From assembly GCF_003574315.2 (NCBI RefSeq), contig NZ_AP025739.1:5828001-5892000 (forward strand): a stretch of DNA of 64,000 nt, written 5' to 3'. The DNA comes from Capsulimonas corticalis (lineage in GTDB: Bacteria > Armatimonadota > Armatimonadia > Armatimonadales > Capsulimonadaceae). Shown piece after piece: positions 45,784 through 57,405 of this stretch (its first letter is position 1; the number at the start of each line of letters is the position of its first letter). The translations under genes were made by a program, and so were the position numbers. The notes below the pieces were generated by a model that ran no database searches, was not told where the DNA came from, and worked only from the letters and a program-made list of their open reading frames with translations.

Positions 45784-48627
45784 ATGTCAAGCTTGAGAAC
45801 CGATTCGCGCCCCGTCGATTCCGAAGGCGGCGGCGAGCTAGCGCGCGATGTGCGCATACTGGGAAACGCTCTAGGGAATGTTTTGCGAGAGCAGGGAGGC
45901 GACGCTCTTTACGAACGCGTGGAAAGAATCCGGGCGCTGACCAAGGAAGCGCGGCGGACGCAGGGCCGGGATCCCGCCGAACAAGAGCTGGACGCCCTGT
46001 TCGCCGGCATGGACTTCGCGGCGGCGTTGCCCGTGCTCAAGGCGTTCACGACCTTCTTCCAGCTGATCAATCTCGCCGAACTCAAAGAGATCGCGCGCGT
46101 CAACCGCCGGCGCGCGGCGGAGGCGAGCGACGCCCCGCGCCGAGAATCGATCCGTGACGCGATCCGCGCGCTCAAAGAGTCCGGCGCCGGCCCGGAGCAG
46201 ATGCACGACCTCATTCGCGCCCTCTCCATCCAGCTCGTGTTCACGGCGCATCCCACCGAATCCAAACGCCGCAGCGTCCAGCAAAAGCTGCATCGCTTGT
46301 CGAACGTGCTCACCCGTCAGGAAGACCCACTGCTTTCGCACAGCGAGGCGCTGGCGCTGGACGCGGAGATCGCCTCCGAAGTCGAGATTCTCTGGCAGAC
46401 GGATGAAGTCCGCCAGCGCCGCCTGTCCGTATTGGATGAGGCGAGGAACGTCCTTTTCTACTTCAGCCAAACGCTGATCGCCGTCACCCCGCGTATCTAC
46501 GACGATCTGCGCTCCGCGCTCGCCGAATACTACCCCGGCGAAACGTTCGAGATTCCCACCGTCCTGGAGTTCGGCTCCTGGATCGGCGGAGACCGCGACG
46601 GCAACCCGACCATCACGCTGGACCATACGACGGAAGTCCTGCGGCTGCACGCGGACTTAGTCCTTTCGTATTACATTCCTGCAATACGCAGCCTGAGCGA
46701 CAAGCTCTCCCAGTCCCGTCACTATGTCGGGATCTCCCGCGAACTGGAGCAGTCGCTCGCGGATGACGCCGCGCGGCAGCCGGATGTCGTCGCGGAAGCC
46801 GCCAATCGAAGTCAGACCGAGCCGTATCGCCGCAAGATGGAGTTTATCTGGGAGCGCCTGCGCGACACCCAGCGCCGGCTCAACGGCCTGGAAGCGACCC
46901 TGCCCTACGCCAGCGCCGCCGAGTTCATCCATGATCTTGAGATTGTGGACCGATCGCTGCGCGAGAACAACGGCGTCTTCGCCGCAAACCGGGCTCTGGC
47001 GCCGTTCCTGAACCAGGCGCGCGTCTTCGGCTTCCACCTGGCCCGGCTCGATATCCGGGATCACAAAGAAAAGTATATCGGCGCGCTCGCCGCCGTATTC
47101 GCTCCGCTGGGCGTCGATTGGAACGCGCTGGACGAAGACGCGAAGATCGCGCTTCTGGAGCGTGAGATCGCCAACCCGCGCCCGCTGATCCCGGCCGAGC
47201 TGGATTACGACGAGTCCGTGAGCGAGACGATCAACTTGCTGCGTCTCGCCAAAACAAAGACCGAACAGATCGGGCCGGAAGCCATCGGGTCGCTGATTAT
47301 GTCGATGGCGTCCACCGTCTCCGATGTCCTCGCTATGCTGCTGCTCGCGAAGGAAGCGCGTCTGCTCAAGATCCACAGCGATCAATTCGACTCGAGCGTG
47401 GATGTGGTTCCGCTGTTCGAGACGATCGCCGATCTCGAGAATGCGCCCGGCGTTCTGGACACCCTGCTCTCCAATCCCGTGTATCGCAAGAACATCGATG
47501 CGCGCGGCAACCAGCAGGAGGTCATGGTCGGCTACTCGGACAGCAACAAAGACGGCGGCTATGTGACGGCGAACTGGAAGCTCTACGTCGCGCAGACAAA
47601 GCTTGCGGAAGTCTCGCGCAAGCACGGCGTCGCGCTCCGTATCTTCCACGGACGCGGCGGCGCCGTGGGACGCGGCGGCGGTCCGGCGAACAAGGCCATT
47701 CTCGCGCAGCCGCCCGGCAGCATTCAAGGGCGTCTCAAGATCACCGAGCAAGGCGAAGTGATCGCGGCGCGGTACTTCGACGAACGGATCGCGTATCGAA
47801 ACCTGGAGCAGGTCGTTCACGCCGTGCTGACCGCCAGCGCCGAGGCCGCGCAGCCCGGCCATGCGGAGCCGAAGGCCGAGTGGATCGCCGCCATGGATGA
47901 AATCTCCGATGACGCTTTTCACGCATATCGCTCGCTGGTCTATGAAGATCCGGAGTTCGTCCGCTTCTTCCATGAGGCAACGCCGATCGGCGAATTGGCC
48001 CAGCTCAATATCGGGTCACGACCGCCCAAACGCACGGCGTCGGACAAGATCGAGGATCTGCGCGCCATTCCGTGGGTCTTCTCCTGGATGCAGAGCCGCT
48101 ACACGCTGCCCGGCTGGTACGGGATCGGCGCGGCCCTCGGCCGCTACGCCGCGCGCTCGCCGGAGCACTTAGCCTGCCTGCAAGAGATGTATCGCAACTG
48201 GGCGTTCTTTACCACGACGCTGGACAACGCGCAGATGTCGCTGGCTAAGGCCGACATGGACATCGCGGCCAAGTACGCCACACTGGTTTCCGATGAGAAT
48301 CTGCGCGCGCGTGTGTTTGGAGCGATCCACAAGGAATACTGCGATTCCGTGGAGATCGTCTGTAAGATCATCGGGGGCGACGCGCTGCTGGACAACAGCC
48401 CGGTGCTGCAAAAATCCATCCGGCTGCGCAACCCGTACGTGGATCCGCTGAGCTATCTGCAAGTGGAGCTGTTAAGCCGGCTGCGCACGCTGCCGACGGA
48501 CGACGGCGAGGGGCGTGAGGGAGAAGACGCGGAGCGAGACGCCATCCGCGCGCGGCGCCGCGACCTGCGCGCGGCGGTGCTGCTATCGATCAACGGCGTG
48601 GCCGCCGGTCTCAAGAACACGGGCTAG
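45784..48627 (+). CDS. ppc: Phosphoenolpyruvate carboxylase
   Basis: Adds bicarbonate to PEP to give oxaloacetate, refilling the TCA cycle. The 947 residues hold the family signatures: VFTAHPTESKRRSVQQKLHR with catalytic His, the GGDRDGNPTIT region, GYSDSNKDGGYVTANWKLY, and FHGRGGAVGRGGGPANKAIL followed by QPPGSIQGRLKITEQGEVI. The C-terminus is LLSINGVAAGLKNTG, as expected for the tetrameric enzyme. Length is normal. It is divergent from the glucoamylase gene. Confidence 0.98.
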   Translation: MSSLRTDSRPVDSEGGGELARDVRILGNALGNVLREQGGDALYERVERIRALTKEARRTQGRDPAEQELDALFAGMDFAAALPVLKAFTTFFQLINLAELKEIARVNRRRAAEASDAPRRESIRDAIRALKESGAGPEQMHDLIRALSIQLVFTAHPTESKRRSVQQKLHRLSNVLTRQEDPLLSHSEALALDAEIASEVEILWQTDEVRQRRLSVLDEARNVLFYFSQTLIAVTPRIYDDLRSALAEYYPGETFEIPTVLEFGSWIGGDRDGNPTITLDHTTEVLRLHADLVLSYYIPAIRSLSDKLSQSRHYVGISRELEQSLADDAARQPDVVAEAANRSQTEPYRRKMEFIWERLRDTQRRLNGLEATLPYASAAEFIHDLEIVDRSLRENNGVFAANRALAPFLNQARVFGFHLARLDIRDHKEKYIGALAAVFAPLGVDWNALDEDAKIALLEREIANPRPLIPAELDYDESVSETINLLRLAKTKTEQIGPEAIGSLIMSMASTVSDVLAMLLLAKEARLLKIHSDQFDSSVDVVPLFETIADLENAPGVLDTLLSNPVYRKNIDARGNQQEVMVGYSDSNKDGGYVTANWKLYVAQTKLAEVSRKHGVALRIFHGRGGAVGRGGGPANKAILAQPPGSIQGRLKITEQGEVIAARYFDERIAYRNLEQVVHAVLTASAEAAQPGHAEPKAEWIAAMDEISDDAFHAYRSLVYEDPEFVRFFHEATPIGELAQLNIGSRPPKRTASDKIEDLRAIPWVFSWMQSRYTLPGWYGIGAALGRYAARSPEHLACLQEMYRNWAFFTTTLDNAQMSLAKADMDIAAKYATLVSDENLRARVFGAIHKEYCDSVEIVCKIIGGDALLDNSPVLQKSIRLRNPYVDPLSYLQVELLSRLRTLPTDDGEGREGEDAERDAIRARRRDLRAAVLLSINGVAAGLKNTG

Positions 48628-48652
48628 TCGAAAAAAAGCGAGGGGGTGGAGG

Positions 48653-49009
48653 TCAATCGTCGATCTCCACCAATCCCTCTTCCGTTCCGACTTTGTGGAT
48701 ATATACCGGCACGTAGCCGAATGTCCGATAGAAGCGAAGAGCTAGTTCGCCCTCATCCGCATCCGAGTCAACAATGTTTCCCTGATAGACGGCGACATAC
48801 CGTCCATAGTGCTCATCGATTGTCGTCTGAGGCAGTTGGTTGAACGCCACCACTTCCTTCCAGAAGGGCGCGTCTTCGATGTCTTCACGCAGCCATGGCA
48901 TGGACGACAGGCTGACTTGAGTCGTGTCCGAAGATGAAGGATGAGAATTGCCGTTATGATGCTCCGGGTCCGGCTGGGCGGAGAATATTTGATCTGAAGC
49001 GCCGGTCAT
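48653..49009 (-). CDS. DUF5678-like small protein
   Basis: 118 residues from an ATG with GGAGG seven bases upstream; an in-frame start at 49069 adds 20 residues. The N-terminal half is a polar linker. The C-terminal half (HYGRYVAVYQGNIVDSDADE, then GELALRFYRTFGYVPVYIHKV) matches the DUF5678 pattern of a short beta-hairpin plus helix. The function is unknown. It lies directly downstream of pafA on the same strand, so a link to the proteasome locus is possible, though only by position. Confidence 0.65.
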   Translation of the reverse strand: MTGASDQIFSAQPDPEHHNGNSHPSSSDTTQVSLSSMPWLREDIEDAPFWKEVVAFNQLPQTTIDEHYGRYVAVYQGNIVDSDADEGELALRFYRTFGYVPVYIHKVGTEEGLVEIDD

Positions 49010-49135
49010 TGCGAAACCTCCTGCCCAAAGTATAGCAAAAGGGCAAGGAGGAGTCAAGCAATTTTCCATCGTGCGGCCGGACGAAAGCGCTATGGGCGCG
49101 GAAAGCGCGCGAAGTCGTCAAGAAGCCCGGCGTTA

Positions 49136-50620
49136 TTACGCCAGTCCCGACGAGAAGATCTTCGCTTCTTCCGTATAAGTGTTGAACGGTTCCTTCATCT
49201 CCAGATGCAGGCGCTTCGAGAGATAGATCAGGTCCCAGTCGATGACGTAGTCGCGATAGTTGGTGGCGAGGAGCTTGTCGATGACCATTCCCCTGCCCTT
49301 CGCGCGCGTCGTCTGCGGCGGCGTGGTCATGGCTTCGAAGATCCGCCGGTCGGTCGTGACGCGCTCCACCAGTCCCGCTTGCTCCAGGCCATAGTAAAGC
49401 CCGTCGTCCGGGCTGACGTTATGGTACTCTAAGTCCAGAGAATGCAGAACGTCGTCGCCCCACTTCACTTCGCCGTCCGCCTCCATGAACTCTTCCAGCA
49501 TCTTGCGCTTGGCGACCCAGTCCAATTTGTCGGACAGCAGATACGGGTCTTTCTCCAGCGTATCCAGCACGTACTCCCATTCGCCGAGCACATAATCCGT
49601 CTGCTCGTCGCGGCCCGTGTAGCGTTTTTTGGCGGCGTTCAGATAGAGACGCTGCAAATCGACGGCCTTGATCGTGGCGCCGTCCTTGCGGGTCACGATC
49701 CACTTCCAGGTCGGATCGCGCGAAACGCTCTTGAGCGCATCCAGAGCGTCCCTCAACTCCACATCGTGCAGCACCACGCCGTCTTCGATCAGGTCCAAAG
49801 CGATGCTGGTCGTCCCAACCTTCATCAGGGTCGCATACTCGCTCATATTGCACTCGCCAAACAGAATGTGCAGGCGATGCATGTTGAGATAGTTGTAGTA
49901 CGAATCCCACTTCGGATTGATGATCGCCCGGTTAAAGCGAACACGCGAGGAGATCGTCTTGACGATGTGGTCCGCGCGCTGCGACAACTGGAAATCGACC
50001 GTCGGATCGACTTCGACGCCGTAGAAGTTGCCGACCCACTGGTAGTCCACCTCGTAATCCGAGATGGTCATGATATTGTTCTTGAGGCTCTTGTAGTTGA
50101 GCCGGTGCCCGCCGACGCGGCCGACGCCCGCGAAGATCTGCCGCGTCACGAGAAACGGCATCAAGCTCGCGAGGGCCTCAAGAAAATTCTGATCGTCGAT
50201 CTGGACGAGGTAATTCTCATGGCAGCCGAATGTGTGGCCGCCAAAGTGGTCCACGGAGTTGGAATGGAAAGAGACCTGGTCCTGAAGATTGAGCTCGCGC
50301 AGCAGGCGGTTGAGGATCACGCGACCGGCTTTGTCGTAGGCCACAACGTCCTTGAACTCCGTGCACTCGGGCGTGGCGTACTCCATGTGCGACCCGACGG
50401 CGTCGATATAGAGACGCCCGCCGCTGCGCAGAAATCCGCCGCACCGCGCAGGCTCGAAGGCGTAGTCGCGCGCGTGCAGATCGATCAGGCCCAGCTTGTC
50501 CTTGTAGAACGCATGGTCCTTGACCTGCTCGACGATCATTTCGGGCGTGCCGGCGGCGTCGTCACGGACCATACAGCCGAACTCGGTCTCGATCCCAATA
50601 ATTCTCTTATCCATCCCCAC
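49136..50620 (-). CDS. pafA: Pup/UBact-protein ligase PafA
   Basis: Attaches the C-terminal glutamate of the Pup-like tag to substrate lysines using ATP. The 494 residues of the carboxylate-amine ligase fold start with RIIGIETEFGCMVRDD (Glu11 metal ligand) and have SGGRLYIDAVGSHMEYATPE with the key Asp73, then NSVDHFGGHTFGCHENYL and RLHILFGECNMSEYATLMKVGT. Most relatives have His-Pro-Glu-Tyr; here it is His-Met-Glu-Tyr. The ID-x-x-GSH form and missing Dop loop assign it to PafA rather than Dop. It closes the proteasome gene cluster. Confidence 0.93.
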   Translation of the reverse strand: MGMDKRIIGIETEFGCMVRDDAAGTPEMIVEQVKDHAFYKDKLGLIDLHARDYAFEPARCGGFLRSGGRLYIDAVGSHMEYATPECTEFKDVVAYDKAGRVILNRLLRELNLQDQVSFHSNSVDHFGGHTFGCHENYLVQIDDQNFLEALASLMPFLVTRQIFAGVGRVGGHRLNYKSLKNNIMTISDYEVDYQWVGNFYGVEVDPTVDFQLSQRADHIVKTISSRVRFNRAIINPKWDSYYNYLNMHRLHILFGECNMSEYATLMKVGTTSIALDLIEDGVVLHDVELRDALDALKSVSRDPTWKWIVTRKDGATIKAVDLQRLYLNAAKKRYTGRDEQTDYVLGEWEYVLDTLEKDPYLLSDKLDWVAKRKMLEEFMEADGEVKWGDDVLHSLDLEYHNVSPDDGLYYGLEQAGLVERVTTDRRIFEAMTTPPQTTRAKGRGMVIDKLLATNYRDYVIDWDLIYLSKRLHLEMKEPFNTYTEEAKIFSSGLA

Positions 50621-50647
50621 CGCCCTTTATTTCTCATGATTTCAGAA

Positions 50648-50671
50648 AGCCGGCGAACGAATTCGCCGGCT
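50648..50671. repeat. Short palindrome between prcA and pafA
   Basis: GCCGGCGAA-CGAA-TTCGCCGGC is a 9-bp perfect stem. The same core appears in variant form at both ends of the composite repeat at 52378-52526. A TTCTTTTC tail follows only on the plus strand, opposite to transcription of the operon. Confidence 0.65.
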
Positions 50672-50693
50672 TCTTTTCAGCGCAGACTCACAC

Positions 50694-51512
50694 CTAGCCC
50701 ACTAACGCGGGCTGGTATGCGGATAAGACTTCGGACAATTCACCTTCGTTCAGCAGCCGGAATTTGCTTTCGCGCGTGGTGTTGCGCTCCAGCACCCCCG
50801 CTTCCACAACCCAGCCCTTCGCCAATCGCTCCTTGATGAACGCGGAGACATCACTCTTGCCTTCGCCCTCGGTGGAGTAATCGGCGTCCGCGCGGTCCTC
50901 CGCGTCCAGATGCTTGGCGCCGACGCCCCAGGCGTAGACAGCCGCCGTGAGCGCCTGAGGCAGCGTGGGAACGCCGCTGCTGACTTCCGTGGTCAGATGC
51001 TCGCGCATCCGGTCTTCGGCGTAGGCGGAGCCGGCGACGACCGCGTGGCCGAGGCTGCTGGAGAACTCGCCGTCATAGGACAAGGTCACGATCTGATCGC
51101 GCTCGGCCTTCTTGCCAAGCTCGACAAAGATGCCCCGGAAGACGATCGGCTGCGCGAAGGGATCGCTGTAGACCTTCTTGATCGCCGGCGAGATTCGGAA
51201 ACTGACCATCCGCTGAATGCTGACATCGTCCGGCGAGCGCGAAAAGCCTTCGGAGTGCGCGACGTCGATCGCCGCACTGCGGATCTGCTCGATATCGCTG
51301 TGATTGCCGATCGCGCTGAACATCAGGCGATCGTAGATCTCATAGACTTTGCGCTGCGTCTGCCGCACGGAAACGAGCAGCACGCCCGCATCGTAAGTCA
51401 GAGCAACCACCGGACTGCCGTCCTTCAGACGGTCTTCAATATATTCGTTTCGCTGCTGGATACTCTCGTTCCAGTCATAAGGGCTATAGGAAGGCAAATC
51501 GTTTACTCCCAC
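50694..51512 (-). CDS. prcA: 20S proteasome alpha subunit
   Basis: 272 residues with the bacterial alpha-subunit pattern: SIQQRNEYIEDRLKDGSPVV, LTYDAGVLLVSVRQTQRKVYEIYDRLMFSAIGNHSD and SYDGEFSSSLGHAVVAGS. It has no catalytic Thr start. Alpha rings gate the barrel and dock the ATPase. It starts 15 bases after prcB and is co-transcribed with it. The C-terminus is longer than in Mycobacterium. Confidence 0.9.
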   Translation of the reverse strand: MGVNDLPSYSPYDWNESIQQRNEYIEDRLKDGSPVVALTYDAGVLLVSVRQTQRKVYEIYDRLMFSAIGNHSDIEQIRSAAIDVAHSEGFSRSPDDVSIQRMVSFRISPAIKKVYSDPFAQPIVFRGIFVELGKKAERDQIVTLSYDGEFSSSLGHAVVAGSAYAEDRMREHLTTEVSSGVPTLPQALTAAVYAWGVGAKHLDAEDRADADYSTEGEGKSDVSAFIKERLAKGWVVEAGVLERNTTRESKFRLLNEGELSEVLSAYQPALVG

Positions 51513-51527
51513 GCATTTCGACGGCGC

Positions 51528-52310
51528 TTACGCGCGGCCGAGGGCGCTCTTAATCTCATCGTCCGTAAAGTCGTGAATACCGTCGGCGGTAATGTATTTG
51601 GCCGCCGGCAGGAACTTGGCCGAGCCGCCGGTCGCCGTGTCGAGATCGGCGGCGATCTCCAGCAGCGTGATCGTTTCCTTGAGCGCCGTGAGACGGTCCA
51701 TATTGCGGAACGGTCCCTTGGTGCGCAGGATGTACTCAAACGCGCCCCGGATCGGCGCCGAACCGCTACCCGCCGCGCCGTACTCGGCCGTCTCGAACTG
51801 GCCGCCCATGGCGTCGTAGAAGTAGATGCGTCCCTGGTTCTCCTCGGTGTCGAACGTCGAAAGAACTGGGATAAACGCGCCGATCCCTTGCAGGGCCGCC
51901 GGCATGTTGTTCGCGATCACGCGCTGGAGCTCCATCAGCTTGCCTTCTTGAGACATCGGCTGAAGCTGCGATCGCTCGAAGTATTTGAAAGTGTGGCGCA
52001 GATAACGCACAACTTCGACACTCTTGGCGAACGATCCCGAAATCGAGATCAGCGTATGGTCGTCGAGCGCCAGGACTTTCTCGGCCTGGTCATACATGAT
52101 CGTATAACCCGCGGTCGCGCGGCGGTCGGCGACATTGATCAGGCCGTCTTTGTACTTGACGGCGATGACGGTCGTCCCGTGCGTCTCGATATCTTTGTAG
52201 CCCGGCACGTTCGGAACGGGCGTCGGCATCGGCAATCGGTCGGCGGCGACGATGCCCTGGGTGATTAATTCCGACAGCGATCCTCTCGCTTCGGTGGTTG
52301 GGAATGGCAT
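51528..52310 (-). CDS. prcB: 20S proteasome beta subunit (catalytic)
   Basis: 260 residues. A 45-residue propeptide (ending DIETHG) is followed by Thr46-Thr-Val-Ile-Ala-Val-Lys, so autocleavage before Thr46 would expose the N-terminal nucleophile. The active-site Asp and Arg region (GLINVADRRATAGYTIMYDQ) and Lys (AEKVLALDD) follow, then SISGSFAKSVEVVRYLRH. It is paired with the alpha gene downstream. This is the only proteolytic subunit in the window. Confidence 0.95.
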   Translation of the reverse strand: MPFPTTEARGSLSELITQGIVAADRLPMPTPVPNVPGYKDIETHGTTVIAVKYKDGLINVADRRATAGYTIMYDQAEKVLALDDHTLISISGSFAKSVEVVRYLRHTFKYFERSQLQPMSQEGKLMELQRVIANNMPAALQGIGAFIPVLSTFDTEENQGRIYFYDAMGGQFETAEYGAAGSGSAPIRGAFEYILRTKGPFRNMDRLTALKETITLLEIAADLDTATGGSAKFLPAAKYITADGIHDFTDDEIKSALGRA

Positions 52311-52377
52311 TTGAATCTATATCCTTGAGACTATCGCAATACTAGGAGAATACGTCACGAAGAGCATCGTCGAAAAA

Positions 52378-52526
52378 TGCCCGGCGAATAAATTCGCGGC
52401 TAAAAGTACGACCGTCCACCTACGTGGACTTCGGAGCCTACGGCACTTTAAAATGCCTTCGGCATAAAGGTCTGAACCCGCGAAGGCGGGTGACCGTACT
52501 TATAGGCGCGAATTCATTCGCCGGCA
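52378..52526. repeat. Composite palindromic element between the UBact gene and prcB
   Basis: Outer arms 52378-52410 and 52495-52526 are close reverse complements (TGCCCGGCGAATAAATTCGC versus the complement of the GCGAATTCATTCGCCGGCA arm, both ending in AGTACG). Inside are further hairpins: GTCCACCTACGTGGAC, ATGCCTTCGGCAT and ACCCGCGAAGGCGGGT. No coding sequence is seen in 52311-52560. It resembles a non-autonomous repeat or a multi-stem transcript element. Confidence 0.8.
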
Positions 52527-52560
52527 ATTCTTTGTAAGCTTCTTCGCGCAAATTGTGAAT

Positions 52561-52749
52561 CTACTCCCCGCTGCGCTGCCGGTACTTCCGCGCTTGATCG
52601 GGGTCGACGCGCTTCATGCGCTTGAGCAGGTCGCTGCGGTCGGGGCGTTCGACGTCGGGCTTGGTCGGTCCCTTTTCGTCGCCTTCCTTGCGGAGCGGGT
52701 CGACGGGGCCGGCGGGGCGTGTGGCGCGATCGTCATCCATTGTCGGCAT
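52561..52749 (-). CDS. Pup-like ubiquitin-type modifier (UBact), C-terminal Gly-Glu
   Basis: 62 residues from an ATG with GGAG six bases upstream; an in-frame upstream ATG adds nine residues. The protein is highly charged and disordered in its first half (DPLRKEGDEKGPTKPDVERP) and ends DLLKRMKRVDPDQARKYRQRSGE. The family known as UBact in Nitrospirae, Armatimonadetes and others has this RQR(S/T)GE/Q ending, while actinobacterial Pup ends GGQ/GGE. The terminal Glu means no deamidation is needed before PafA uses it. It sits between dop and the 20S genes, as in other Pup loci. Confidence 0.92.
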   Translation of the reverse strand: MPTMDDDRATRPAGPVDPLRKEGDEKGPTKPDVERPDRSDLLKRMKRVDPDQARKYRQRSGE

Positions 52750-52818
52750 AGCGTTCTCCTTCTGTATCGATCCCACGCGGCGACGGCGCTTGCCGAAACC
52801 GCGCGGACAAAATGCAAG

Positions 52819-54324
52819 TTATTTCTGGCCCTGCTCGCGATATCGCCGCAGCAAAGCGTTTAAGTCCGGAGCGGCGATGATGCGGGCGAGCTCCGGGGCG
52901 ACGTCTTCGGGCGTCACATATGGGTCCAGGTCCGCGACCCACGATTCCTGGCCGCTGCGTAGAACGACCTTATTCCAGCTGGCGACGCCGATGTTTTCCG
53001 AGAAGCGCTCGACGAGCGCTCCGCGGATCGCGGCGCGGGTCTCGGCGGGCGCATTGGTCCGCGCAGCGTCGATCGCAGCGTCATCCGTCAGGCGAACCAT
53101 CGCGCCGGACTGCTCCAGCGCATAGTAGAGGCCCTCTTCGGGATCGATATTGCTGTAGGCAAGATCGAATGACGCCAGGGATTCATCGCTCCACGGGATG
53201 CCTTCGGATTCGACATAGTCCGCCAGTAGCGCGCGCTTGGCGACCCAGTCGAGACGGTCGTCCAAACTCAGCGGATTGCTTTCCAGGGAATTCAATGTCT
53301 CTTCCCAGGCGCGCAGCGTCCAGTCGGTGTCCGCCCCCCGCCCCGCCAAACGTTCTTTGGCGGCGGCGAGGAAGACGCGCTGCACATCCACCGCCGGCGT
53401 TTTCCCCTGGCCTTCCACATCCACCAGCCACCGATAGGTGGGATCGCGCGACACATTCTTGATCGCCTGCACGGGATTTCGAAGACGGATCGGCGCACGC
53501 CAGCCTTCTTCGAGCAAACTCGTGACGAGATAAGTTGTCCCCACTTTGAGCGCCGTCGCGAACTCGGACATATTGGCGTCGCCGCAGATCACGTGCAGCC
53601 GCCGCCACTCGCGCGGATCGGCGTGGGGCTCGTCCCGCGTGTTCACGAGCGGACGCCGATACAGCGTATCCACCGAGGCTTCCTCGCTAAAGAAGTCCGC
53701 CCGCTGCGAGAGTTGATAGACGCCCGAATTCCCATTCGGCTCGATACCGATCTTGCCCGCGCCGGCGTACAGAATGCGCGTCGCGAAGAACGGCAGCAGA
53801 GCGCTCAGCAGATCGCTGAACGGCACGCCGCGCTTGACAAGGTAGTTCTCGTGCGTGCCATAAGACGAGCCGTGATGGTCCGTGTTGTTCTTATAGATAT
53901 CGATCTGACCAACGCCGTCATGCTCCATCCGAGCGCGCGCCGCTTCCAGCACGATCCGCTCGCCGGCCTTGTCATGGGTCACCAGATCCAGCAGCGTCCG
54001 GCACTCCGGCGTCGAATACTCCGGGTGACCGTGATCGTTGTACAACCGAGCGCCATTCACCAGGATCCGATCCCCGCGCTCTTCCTCGACGGGCAGCGGC
54101 TTATGATCCGGCGAGTCGAACTTCGCGTCTTCCGGATCCTGGGACAGCCGATCGACATAAAACCCGCGCATATCATTGCGCGAATCCTCGCCCCGGTAAT
54201 ACCACGGCCCGGCCGCCGTTCCCGGATACGCCCGGACAACGGCGCGAGATTCCGCGACGAGATCACTGGCGCCCTTGCCTTCGACGGCGATCCCGTATTC
54301 TGTTTCGATGCCGAAGAGGGGCAT
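52819..54324 (-). CDS. dop: Deamidase/depupylase Dop
   Basis: 501 residues of the same fold as PafA. MPLFGIETEYGI begins at an ATG with AAGGA upstream. NGARLYNDHGHPEYSTPE carries the nucleophilic Asp97, and NNTDHHGSSYGTHENYLV and HVICGDANMSEFATALKVGT follow. An insert at about residues 40-80 is the Dop loop region. Because the local tag already ends in Glu, I infer the main job is cleaving the tag from substrates. It lies upstream of the UBact gene by 70 bases. Confidence 0.94.
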   Translation of the reverse strand: MPLFGIETEYGIAVEGKGASDLVAESRAVVRAYPGTAAGPWYYRGEDSRNDMRGFYVDRLSQDPEDAKFDSPDHKPLPVEEERGDRILVNGARLYNDHGHPEYSTPECRTLLDLVTHDKAGERIVLEAARARMEHDGVGQIDIYKNNTDHHGSSYGTHENYLVKRGVPFSDLLSALLPFFATRILYAGAGKIGIEPNGNSGVYQLSQRADFFSEEASVDTLYRRPLVNTRDEPHADPREWRRLHVICGDANMSEFATALKVGTTYLVTSLLEEGWRAPIRLRNPVQAIKNVSRDPTYRWLVDVEGQGKTPAVDVQRVFLAAAKERLAGRGADTDWTLRAWEETLNSLESNPLSLDDRLDWVAKRALLADYVESEGIPWSDESLASFDLAYSNIDPEEGLYYALEQSGAMVRLTDDAAIDAARTNAPAETRAAIRGALVERFSENIGVASWNKVVLRSGQESWVADLDPYVTPEDVAPELARIIAAPDLNALLRRYREQGQK

Positions 54325-54359
54325 GAGAAATTCCTTCACCTAAGCTTACGCTTAGTGTG

Positions 54360-54504
54360 CCCCGGTTATGAAACCCGGGTCTGGGAGCCTTCGGCTAAGC
54401 GTCCGTGCCGGACGCAAATGCCAGCTATCGATCACAAATGACCTCCGTCCGGCACGGACGGTTAGTCGCGAAGCGACTCCCAGACCCGGGTTTCATAACC
54501 GGGG
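54360..54504. repeat. Composite palindromic element between the proteasome ATPase gene and dop
   Basis: The outer 28-base arms (54360-54387 and 54477-54504) are perfect reverse complements. Inside, CGTCCGTGCCGGACG (54400-54414) and CGTCCGGCACGGACG (54446-54460) are reverse complements and are each nearly self-palindromic. GCCTTCGGC and GTCGCGAAGCGAC add further stems. No coding sequence is present in 54325-54553. Confidence 0.88.
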
Positions 54505-54553
54505 ATTTTCGTCAACACGGCGATATACAAGGATCTGGGAGATGCGTACGTAA

Positions 54554-56347
54554 TTAGATCACGTTCCGCCGTGTCACCTGGCTGCCTTTTTTCGCCTTGA
54601 TCGGGTTCAGACGCACGACGTTGTCGGGTTCGTAGTCCACCAGCTTGAGCCAGTCTTCGAGATTGTCCGTCTTCGGGAAGATCTCGTTTTCTTTATACTC
54701 CGTGCGTACGGCGCGCTCCATGTCTTCCCAGGAGACGCCCTCTTTGGTGCTCTTGACTTCGATCGAGCGCTTGATCGCATAATCCTTGGCTCGCTCGACG
54801 ATCGAGGTGAGCAAGGCTCCGGAGACGAGGTCTTTCCAGTAAAGCGTGTCCACCGAGCCGTTGCGCAGGTAGGCTTCCAGGAACTCCGTCTCGTGGGTCT
54901 TTGACCAGATCAGCTCGGTCGTCTGCGCGACGAGGTATTCGCGGGCCTGATCGACGCCGCCTTTCTCATCGACAAGACGCCAGTCTAGAGGCAGGTCCTT
55001 GTGCAGATAGATGCCGAGGATGTCCGAGGTGCTCTGACGATCCGGGCGCACGACTTTGACCTTGCGGTCGATGCGCTCAGGGCGCAGGACAGCGGGGTCG
55101 ATGTAGTCGGGGCGGTTGGACGTCAGCATCACGACGACGTTTTCCAGGGAAACCAAGCCGTCCATCTCGGCGCAGAACTGCGGCACGACCGTATTGGAGA
55201 TGTTCGTGAAGCGGCCCGAGGAGCGGGTGCGCAGGATGCTTTCGGCTTCGTCGATGAAGATGAAGACGAGGTAGCCCTCTTTCGCCTTTTCCCGCGCCGT
55301 GGAAAAGATCTCGCGCACCTGTCGCTCGGATTCGCCGAGCCACATGTTCAGGATCTTCGGGCCGTTGATGTACATGAAGTACTCTTTGACGTCCCGCTTG
55401 GTGCGCTCCTTGTACTCCTGCGTGATATTGTACGCCGTCGCCTTGCCGATCAGCGTCTTGCCGCATCCGGGAGGTCCGTAGAGCAGAATGCCCTTGAGCG
55501 GACGCTTGCCGAAGCGCTCGTAGAGCTCGGGATAAAGCAGCGGAAGCTCGATGGCGTCCTTGATGACGCTGATCGCCTCCTGCTGGCCGCCGATCTTATC
55601 CCACGGGATTTCGGTGACTTGGTCGAGGAAGTAATCCTGGTTTTCCTTGCCGGCGAACGCCTCCAAAGCCACACGGCCGTTCGGCTCCATGCGCACTTCG
55701 GTCCCGGTCTTAATTTTGGCTTCCTTCAGTCCCTCGCCGCGCAGCACGACGCGGGAGTTCTGCCCCTGCTGATCGCCGCCAATGCGCAGGCGTCCGTCTT
55801 CGAGCGCCTCATTGACCTTGACGATCTGGCCGTTCTGGGCCGGGCCGAGGTCGCCGACAATCGCGTAGGCGTCGTTCACCTTGACGCGCGTACCGGTCTT
55901 GAGTTCGGCCGCATCGACATTGGGATCGATATTGGTGTAAAACTCGTTGTCGCCGAGCGCGATGTTCGCGGTGCCGTCTTCATTGCCGGAGAGGAAGACC
56001 GCGATCCGGTTCGCGGGCTGCGTGAGTTTGGTGTACGCTTCGTCGTACTTCTGGATCATCTCCTGCGCTTCGGCGAGCTGCTGCTCGTCGATCTCCAATT
56101 GGTGGCGCAGCAGGAGTAAATACTGATAGTTGGCGTCGAGCGGATCGGTGCTCTCCAGGATCTCATCCAGCACTTTGATCGCCCGGACGGAGGCGTCCGA
56201 TCGCTGCGCGCTGTCGCCGCCCCTGTTCCGCCGGTTATTTCTCTCGTTGTCGCTCGGCATCCGTTCGTACCTTTCGTCTGTCTCTCGAATCTCCGTCGTC
56301 CGGCCCCCGCGTTTTTGCTTGGCCGGGCGGTTCTTGTCTCGCGCCAT
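54554..56347 (-). CDS. Proteasome-associated AAA ATPase (Mpa/ARC)
   Basis: 597 residues. N-terminal coiled coil about residues 60-110 (LLLLRHQLEIDEQQLAEAQEMI), tandem OB folds about 115-235, then an AAA module with Walker A GPPGCGKT (291-298), pore loop in EYFMYINGPKIL, Walker B FIFIDEAES and DPAVLRPERIDRKVKV. The coiled coil binds the Pup-like tag and the ring unfolds substrates into the 20S core. The C-terminus is RRNVI, without the penultimate Tyr of the usual gate-opening tail. The first 113 bases overlap the upstream sigma-factor frame; a start at 56260 is also possible. Confidence 0.93.
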   Translation of the reverse strand: MARDKNRPAKQKRGGRTTEIRETDERYERMPSDNERNNRRNRGGDSAQRSDASVRAIKVLDEILESTDPLDANYQYLLLLRHQLEIDEQQLAEAQEMIQKYDEAYTKLTQPANRIAVFLSGNEDGTANIALGDNEFYTNIDPNVDAAELKTGTRVKVNDAYAIVGDLGPAQNGQIVKVNEALEDGRLRIGGDQQGQNSRVVLRGEGLKEAKIKTGTEVRMEPNGRVALEAFAGKENQDYFLDQVTEIPWDKIGGQQEAISVIKDAIELPLLYPELYERFGKRPLKGILLYGPPGCGKTLIGKATAYNITQEYKERTKRDVKEYFMYINGPKILNMWLGESERQVREIFSTAREKAKEGYLVFIFIDEAESILRTRSSGRFTNISNTVVPQFCAEMDGLVSLENVVVMLTSNRPDYIDPAVLRPERIDRKVKVVRPDRQSTSDILGIYLHKDLPLDWRLVDEKGGVDQAREYLVAQTTELIWSKTHETEFLEAYLRNGSVDTLYWKDLVSGALLTSIVERAKDYAIKRSIEVKSTKEGVSWEDMERAVRTEYKENEIFPKTDNLEDWLKLVDYEPDNVVRLNPIKAKKGSQVTRRNVI

Positions 56348-57152
56348 GTCTCGCCCCCGCCTCATCTATCTTACCCACGCGCTCCGGGTTCTTACCCTGG
56401 CTCGCGGCGCGGGCCGCGAGGCCCGTCGCCCTGGGATTTTTGACTGTCGTTTTCGGACTTTGCAGGGCCTGCGGCTCCGTGAGCAGCTCGACCATGCGGG
56501 CGGTATTGCCCTTCTCAAAAGCGTCCGCCCACTGAGCCACCACATCCCTCGCTTCAGGATCGCGGGCGGCCAGGTCCGACACATTCGCCGGATCGTCTCC
56601 GTGCGGCAGGCTCGCCAGCGTCTGCCTGGCTCTCGCCAGCGCATTCTTCACGGCGGGCACGGTGGTCCCCAGGATCTGCGCCGCCTCCTCCGCGCTCCAG
56701 CCGAGCACATCCCGCAGCACAAGCGCGGCGCGCTGCCTCGGAGGCAAGCTCTGGATCAGCGCGACAAATCCTAATCGAACATCCTCGCGCCCCTGCCCCG
56801 CCCTCTCGGCGGCGATCGACGTCTCAACCCGCCCGGCTTCCTCGGAATCGGCCAGCGATTCCCAGGACGGCCTCCGCTGCACGTGGTTGATCGACAAATT
56901 ATGCGCGATCTTATAAAGCCAGGCGCGAGGCGTGGCGCGGCCTTCGAAGGTTTCCATTGCCCGGTAAGCCCGGACAAACGCTTCTTGAGCGATATCTTCC
57001 GCTTCCGCAAGCGACCCGACGTGCCGATAGCAATACGCCACCAGCTCGCGCCGGTACGGCTCCATCAGCCGGCTAAACGCCTTGCGATCGCCGCGCTGGG
57101 CGCGAACGAGTGTTTCGTGTTGTTGGTTCTGAGCCTCGGTGGTCGTCGTCAC
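56235..57152 (-). CDS. ECF sigma factor at the head of the proteasome cluster
   Basis: 305 residues. Region 2 (YCYRHVGSLAEAEDIAQEAF, then VRAYRAMETFEGRATPRAWLYKIAHNLSINH) and region 4 (QSLPPRQRAALVLRDVLGWS, then AEEAAQILGTTVPAVKNALARARQTL) are complete. A short stretch AQWADAFEKGNTARMVELLTE looks like the start of a SnoaL-like extension that breaks off. The last 80 residues are Arg/Gly/Lys-rich and partly read through the 5' end of the ATPase gene in another frame. Overlap suggests co-transcription and perhaps coupling. Whether it controls the cluster is unknown. Confidence 0.82.
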   Translation of the reverse strand: MTTTTEAQNQQHETLVRAQRGDRKAFSRLMEPYRRELVAYCYRHVGSLAEAEDIAQEAFVRAYRAMETFEGRATPRAWLYKIAHNLSINHVQRRPSWESLADSEEAGRVETSIAAERAGQGREDVRLGFVALIQSLPPRQRAALVLRDVLGWSAEEAAQILGTTVPAVKNALARARQTLASLPHGDDPANVSDLAARDPEARDVVAQWADAFEKGNTARMVELLTEPQALQSPKTTVKNPRATGLAARAASQGKNPERVGKIDEAGARHGARQEPPGQAKTRGPDDGDSRDRRKVRTDAERQREK

Positions 57153-57405
57153 GAATCCGAACTCCTTGCTATCGCTCCTGGGATACTATTGTAACGCGTT
57201 CGCCTCCATGCAGAGTTCCCTGTCGTTGATATAGACACGGAGGCGGGATAAAAAGAACCGGCGCGCTCCAATCGTCGAAATTAATTCACGATTGCTCCCT
57301 GACCGACGTTACTATATTCCACATTCAGCCATCCTCACCCTGCATTTCGTATCTCTCGCCACAGTACTGATTTTACGCGGGTAATCCAGACAACTTACTG
57401 CTAAT

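Follow-up and report, generated by a model that had tools for sequence, protein, structure and literature searches.

A UBact-Type Proteasome Locus in Capsulimonas corticalis, Its Switching Modifier End and Its Tyrosine-Free ATPase Tail

Introduction

The closest described systems are the Pup-proteasome system of Actinobacteria, which comprises an ATPase (Mpa or ARC), Dop, the modifier Pup, the subunits PrcB and PrcA and the ligase PafA, and the UBact system of Gram-negative phyla (Lehmann et al. 2017, cited in PMC12751074). A Gram-negative proteasome cluster with armatimonadetes among its hosts was reported in 2017 (PMC5666114), and a C-terminal G[EQ] signature in the Pups of several phyla had been noted earlier (PMC2588565, 2008). 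The docking motif of the actinobacterial ATPase is a GQYL end with penultimate Tyr (PMC9599533; PMC8223512). Mpa docks by this C-terminus in two modes, in which Tyr608 bonds either to PrcA Arg26 or to PrcA Glu119, and in the Glu119 mode the Mpa chain end pairs with PrcA Lys52 (PMC9599533). The present analysis concerns a putative UBact-proteasome locus in a stretch of 64,000 nucleotides, hereafter the window, from Capsulimonas corticalis (Armatimonadota, Capsulimonadaceae; contig NZ_AP025739.1, positions 5,828,001 to 5,892,000 of the forward strand).

Gene Set and Identity of the Locus

Six intact open reading frames (ORFs) occupy positions 49136-56365 of the window on the minus strand in the order ATPase-dop-UBact-prcB-prcA-pafA, and Pfam and NCBIfam scans identify all of them (Table 1). 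The complete order within about 7 kb claimed in an earlier, sequence-only reading of this DNA was thus found as described. Its span of 49136-56347 needs extending at the ATPase end, where 56347 is the second in-frame Met and the first ATG of the ORF lies at 56365. The identical order was read from the listing in 29 of 80 relatives' loci, including ones titled Gemmatimonadetes (L105) and Latescibacterota (L129, L131); 2 of the 29 have one gene in pieces.

The modifier was aligned with 30 relatives and was given without its first Met to the profile scans and to the search of its own genome. Comparison of this 62-residue protein with the modifier families, proposed in the earlier reading, places it in UBact at about 82 bits on both curated models (82.0 bits against NF033388, cut-off 35; 82.1 bits against PF20513, cut-off 27.8). 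Its length and its RQRSGE ending are as first described. It has a single match in the 7.65-Mb genome, one contig of 7,645,051 bases that contains the window, and the NF033388 search over 14 control genomes found no match in any. With UBact models over cut-off and linked genes, the claim of a UBact-type Pup-proteasome locus outside Actinobacteria is borne out. Judged from sequence, the locus is a further member of the known UBact family, in a Capsulimonadaceae armatimonadote, and we put the probability that it is a UBact-proteasome system at roughly 90%.

Among the partners, the ATPase exceeds the cut-offs of PF17758, PF16450 and PF00004, and its best PDB matches are proteasome-associated ATPases. 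Both proteasome subunits exceed the cut-off of PF00227 (PrcB 82.5 bits, PrcA 25.8 bits), and HGTT is present in 84 of 95 distinct PrcB ORFs. The dop product scores 459.3 bits with TIGR03688 versus 362.4 with TIGR03686, and pairwise it reaches 381 bits to Dop 4b0r and 242 to PafA 4b0t. It carries both the catalytic Asp motif, shared by 115 of 116 distinct Dops (only the truncated piece L026 lacks it), and the Dop loop, a distinguishing feature of Dop according to PMC7947786. The loop is seen in the spacing from the GxExE[YF]G motif to the catalytic-Asp motif, 89 residues in Dop versus 61 in PafA. The pafA product has the Pup_ligase domain (PF03136, 427.7 bits) and the catalytic Asp without a Dop loop, scores 306.9 bits with TIGR03686 versus 288.0 with TIGR03688, and contains a VGSH motif that aligns with PafA 4b0t. 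In a tree of 36 sequences the dop product groups with the solved Dops and the pafA product with PafA 4b0t (support 85/98).

Several points weigh against this assignment. All five partners fall under their NCBIfam equivalog cut-offs: the ATPase with 454 vs 504.75 bits (TIGR03689), Dop with 459.3 vs 492.3 (TIGR03688), PafA with 306.9 vs 551.3 (TIGR03686), PrcA with 69.6 vs 139.05 (TIGR03691) and PrcB with 142.5 vs 191.9. The pafA product is pairwise slightly closer to solved Dops (226 bits) than to solved PafAs (205 bits), and in the 36-sequence tree the branch leading to PafA 4b0t is long. The putative PafA call is favoured only by its profile scores, its VGSH motif, its lack of a Dop loop and its place in the tree. 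The partners are recognised yet remain under the equivalog cut-offs, and therefore appear to be a divergent branch of the same machinery.

Spread of UBact in Armatimonadota

The NF033388 search found UBact in 167 of 291 genomes of Armatimonadota, and a Pup-ligase family protein is present in 188 of the 291. The locus had been presented as a rare chance for comparing tagging chemistry, a description that does not suit a modifier so widespread in its phylum. UBact is thus common in Armatimonadota, whereas a passage of a 2020 paper calls the presence of Dop and PafA 'very sporadic' (PMC7947786).

A Pup-ligase match occurs without a UBact match in 21 genomes (e.g. G211, G213, G222, G258), some of them incomplete and some with weak or several matches; these perhaps carry another modifier or none. 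In one genome (G008; L032 7803-8003 and 7951-8151, minus strand) a second UBact-like ORF ends ARRYEQRSGQ. Its frame overlaps the final part of the regular UBact gene, and a tandem second modifier is possible.

Terminal Residue of the Modifier and the Role of Dop

The C-terminal signature R[ST]G[EQ] is present as RSGE in the window, as YRQRSG followed by E or Q in all 167 genomes of the phylum that carry UBact, and as RTG[EQ] in relatives from loci titled Gemmatimonadetes, Latescibacterota or Verrucomicrobia. Counted by the pattern YRQRSG, E or Q and a stop, the end is Glu in 69 of these 167 genomes, Gln in 98 and both in none; G234 fits the Glu pattern and is not among the 167, and one extra match, in G187, was not counted. 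Glu, which had been taken as the typical UBact ending, is therefore the less common one here and is ruled out as a diagnostic feature.

Both endings occur within 11 of the 30 genera that have at least two UBact genomes. One such genus lies in the family of C. corticalis, where the window, G024 and G025 have Glu and G022 and G023 have Gln; G023 and G024 are congeneric. Glu/Gln changes were counted on a tree of Dop sequences with 83 rows, one of them the window; the rows stand for loci that have a single Dop above 280 bits, sufficient length and a readable UBact end. The tree needs 22 changes, compared with a mean of 27.6 (standard deviation 2.4) for shuffled labels, and 9 of 500 shuffles needed no more than 22; the count comes from a quick tree in which 33 of 80 inner branches are poorly supported. 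The state is weakly inherited and flips often. One base change is enough for the switch, and the closest Dop pairs with opposite endings are 92% identical (L054 Glu, L055 Gln) and 90% identical (L032 Gln, L097 Glu). The literature searched, which excluded the text of the UBact paper by Lehmann et al. (2017), contained nothing on the speed of Glu/Gln switching or on mixing of the two ends in UBact. Frequent switching supplies natural pairs in which two nearly identical systems differ in the deamidation step, and on such pairs the value of this step can be tested.

By analogy with Pup biochemistry, from which every enzymatic step is taken, PafA would phosphorylate the encoded C-terminal Glu of UBact and join its side chain to target lysines, and the ATPase would pull the tagged proteins into the PrcA/PrcB barrel. 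With Glu encoded, no deamidation would be needed, and the remaining chemical job of Dop would therefore be to take UBact off its targets. To this extent the sequence-only reading, which saw Dop mainly as a de-conjugase, still stands: an encoded Glu would spare deamidation in this organism. The inference itself had already been printed for Glu-ending Pups. A 2012 review used such a Pup to explain the presence of dop in Corynebacterium glutamicum, where Dop is kept as a depupylase (PMC3511204), and a 2025 review states that species with Glu-ending Pup suggest depupylation as the primary function of Dop (PMC12288473).

It is a further step to propose that, as a result of the encoded Glu, Dop has lost its deamidase ability and now acts purely as a de-conjugase. 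The Glu of the window and the two reviews would agree with such a loss. Nevertheless, it is unlikely, as genomes with 92% and 90% identical Dops end in opposite residues and the two reactions, deamidation and depupylation, are described as equivalent in chemical terms (PMC8223512). Since its lineage often switches between Gln and Glu, Dop probably retains deamidase ability, and the speed of switching argues against a permanent specialisation.

The ATPase Tail and the PrcA Pocket

The window ATPase ends RRNVI, without GQYL and its penultimate Tyr. All 43 further distinct ATPase C-termini have Ile or Val as their last two residues and lack Tyr among the final three. This set leaves out open-ended pieces and those that score 300 bits or less, among them an L068/L127 fragment that ends GPPDAARR, and counts sequences with the same last 150 residues once. 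Another 13 of 13 C-termini from families f15 and f16 (15 rows minus the window's own and a repeat of L040) have two hydrophobic last residues, some with a final Leu or Met, and likewise no Tyr in the last three. For the actinobacterial tail, GQYL was taken from papers. No discussion of the UBact ATPase tail was found in the literature searched, again excluding the text of Lehmann et al. (2017).

The alpha subunit differs at the two sites of tyrosine contact. Window PrcA has Lys and Asp at the Lys52 and Asp144 positions, Asp31 at the Arg26 position and Val at Glu119. In an alignment of 71 PrcA rows, the window included (closed ORFs above 140 bits, merged on the last 180 residues, with some near-copies left), all 71 keep Lys52 and Asp144, but one alone keeps Arg26 (L144) and none keeps Glu119, the residue there being mostly Val; the actinobacterial reference is two solved sequences. 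Armatimonadota show both tail and pocket, as do loci titled Gemmatimonadetes and Latescibacterota; the pocket is present in Verrucomicrobia-titled loci as well.

These patterns suggest that a hydrophobic, Tyr-free tail ([IV]-[IVLM]-COOH) may enter a pocket that keeps Lys52 and Asp144 and lacks Arg26 and Glu119, and that tail and pocket may have changed together in the UBact branch, a proposal for which the case seems evenly poised. On the simplest reading proposed, the tail would dock by hydrophobic contact and a Lys salt bridge, with no tyrosine. Four considerations count against it. In 49 of the 71 PrcA a basic residue is found in the Arg26 column or in the column just ahead of it; the alignment could be shifted by one, and such a residue could stand in for Arg26. 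The archaeal alpha subunit compared, which we take to bind tyrosine tails, has Lys in the Arg26 column and Gly in that of Glu119, although its row is gapped near Lys52 and serves as a rough control; because of this Gly, docking of a tyrosine probably does not require Glu119 in general. Only two actinobacterial PrcA sequences were compared. Finally, a conserved change in the ATPase and another in PrcA, both in the same clade, could have arisen independently. If the Tyr-free tail does dock, it would be a second solution to opening the bacterial proteasome gate.

The tail also bears on the idea that the UBact tag is a reversible regulatory signal and the proteasome mainly handles untagged substrates. 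With a tyrosine-free tail, the ATPase might be coupled to the barrel weakly or not at all, and Actinobacteria without a proteasome retain pupylation (PMC3511204). However, prcB and prcA stand within the same gene cluster in many relatives, conservation of the tail suggests selection, and PrcA Lys52 is invariant, which together make a purely regulatory tag quite improbable. Delivery of UBact-tagged proteins to the barrel remains the preferred reading.

Two side observations concern PrcA. Where 1q5q has Glu121, 70 of 71 UBact-type PrcA carry Arg or Lys, and where it has Arg26, 34 of 71 carry Asp or Glu; charges may thus have been exchanged around the pocket. In five f15 or f15-like loci (L046, L057, L109, L116, L125), Dop, UBact and PrcB stand together and PrcA, PafA and the ATPase are not adjacent. 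Those f15 genomes that were searched have their ATPase at another place in the genome, and PrcA, where found, has diverged. Loss of PrcA in f15 was mostly rejected: the adjacent gene is missing, yet 8 of 11 genomes searched with PF00227 hold a diverged PrcA elsewhere. The PF00227 match in G099 has 31.9 bits. In G134 and G135, which belong to one genus, PF00227 finds an HslV-like protein and PrcB and no PrcA-like match at E 0.01; PrcA may be lost there or too diverged.

Intergenic Repeats and Upstream Region

Table 1. Positions of the genes and other features of the locus, numbered within the window.
Feature	Position	Strand	Remarks
ATPase (ARC/Mpa-like proteasomal AAA ATPase)	54554..56365	-	603 aa from first ATG; OB domains and AAA domain
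ATPase C-terminal codons Asn-Val-Ile	54557..54565	-	tyrosine-free where Mpa has GQYL
dop (depupylase/deamidase)	52819..54339	-	Dop loop; predicted catalytic Asp102 in YNDHGHPE
UBact modifier, 62 aa	52561..52749	-	ends RQRSGE
Terminal Glu codon GAG of UBact	52564..52566	-	Glu/Gln-switching position
prcB (proteasome beta subunit)	51528..52310	-	predicted nucleophile Thr46 in HGTT and 45-residue propeptide
prcA (proteasome alpha subunit)	50694..51512	-	PF00227; Lys/Asp at Lys52/Asp144 positions
pafA (UBact ligase)	49136..50620	-	without Dop loop; predicted catalytic Asp73 in LYIDAVGSHMEYA
Palindromic repeat element, UBact/prcB gap	52373..52532	.	inverted repeat
Palindromic repeat element, ATPase/dop gap	54360..54504	.	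perfect arms of 28 nt

Two intergenic gaps of the locus hold palindromic repeats, both of which look like mobile or repetitive extragenic palindromic (REP)-like elements. A search of the organism's own genome with the basic local alignment search tool (BLAST) gave 82 matches to the repeat in the ATPase/dop gap and 64 to that in the UBact/prcB gap, many loci being counted on both strands, and an Rfam scan of 48600-57200 found no element at gathering scores. Such genome-wide elements in two gaps could hint at a decayed or horizontally acquired, non-functional locus, which is nonetheless highly improbable given six open frames with intact catalytic motifs and the conservation of order and presence among relatives.

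Directly upstream, an ORF for a sigma factor of the extracytoplasmic function (ECF) type (56235-57152, minus strand) overlaps the 5' end of the ATPase ORF. Because of this overlap the ATPase start is uncertain; it may be the first ATG, the second in-frame Met or a later codon. A regulatory link between the sigma factor and the proteasome locus is possible.

Comparison with Known Systems

The locus shares with the UBact system of Gram-negative phyla (NF033388/PF20513) its modifier family, the C-terminal R[ST]G[EQ] and the linked proteasome, Dop and PafA genes. The organism of the window has proteasome subunits, unlike C. glutamicum, which to our knowledge lacks them. A modifier end encoded as Glu and a retained dop are common to this locus and to C. 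glutamicum pupylation (PMC3511204).

The actinobacterial Pup-proteasome has the same gene content and order, the Dop loop, the catalytic Asp motifs, the G[EQ] ending and the beta-subunit Thr in common with the locus. The window modifier differs in ending RSGE where Pup has GG[EQ], its ATPase in lacking GQYL, and its PrcA in lacking Arg26 and Glu119. Rarity and the meaning of the terminal Glu were over-sold earlier. The switching last residue and the Tyr-free tail are the parts that merit specialist attention. The clearer difference from the actinobacterial system lies in the ATPase tail and the PrcA pocket, rather than in the terminal Glu.

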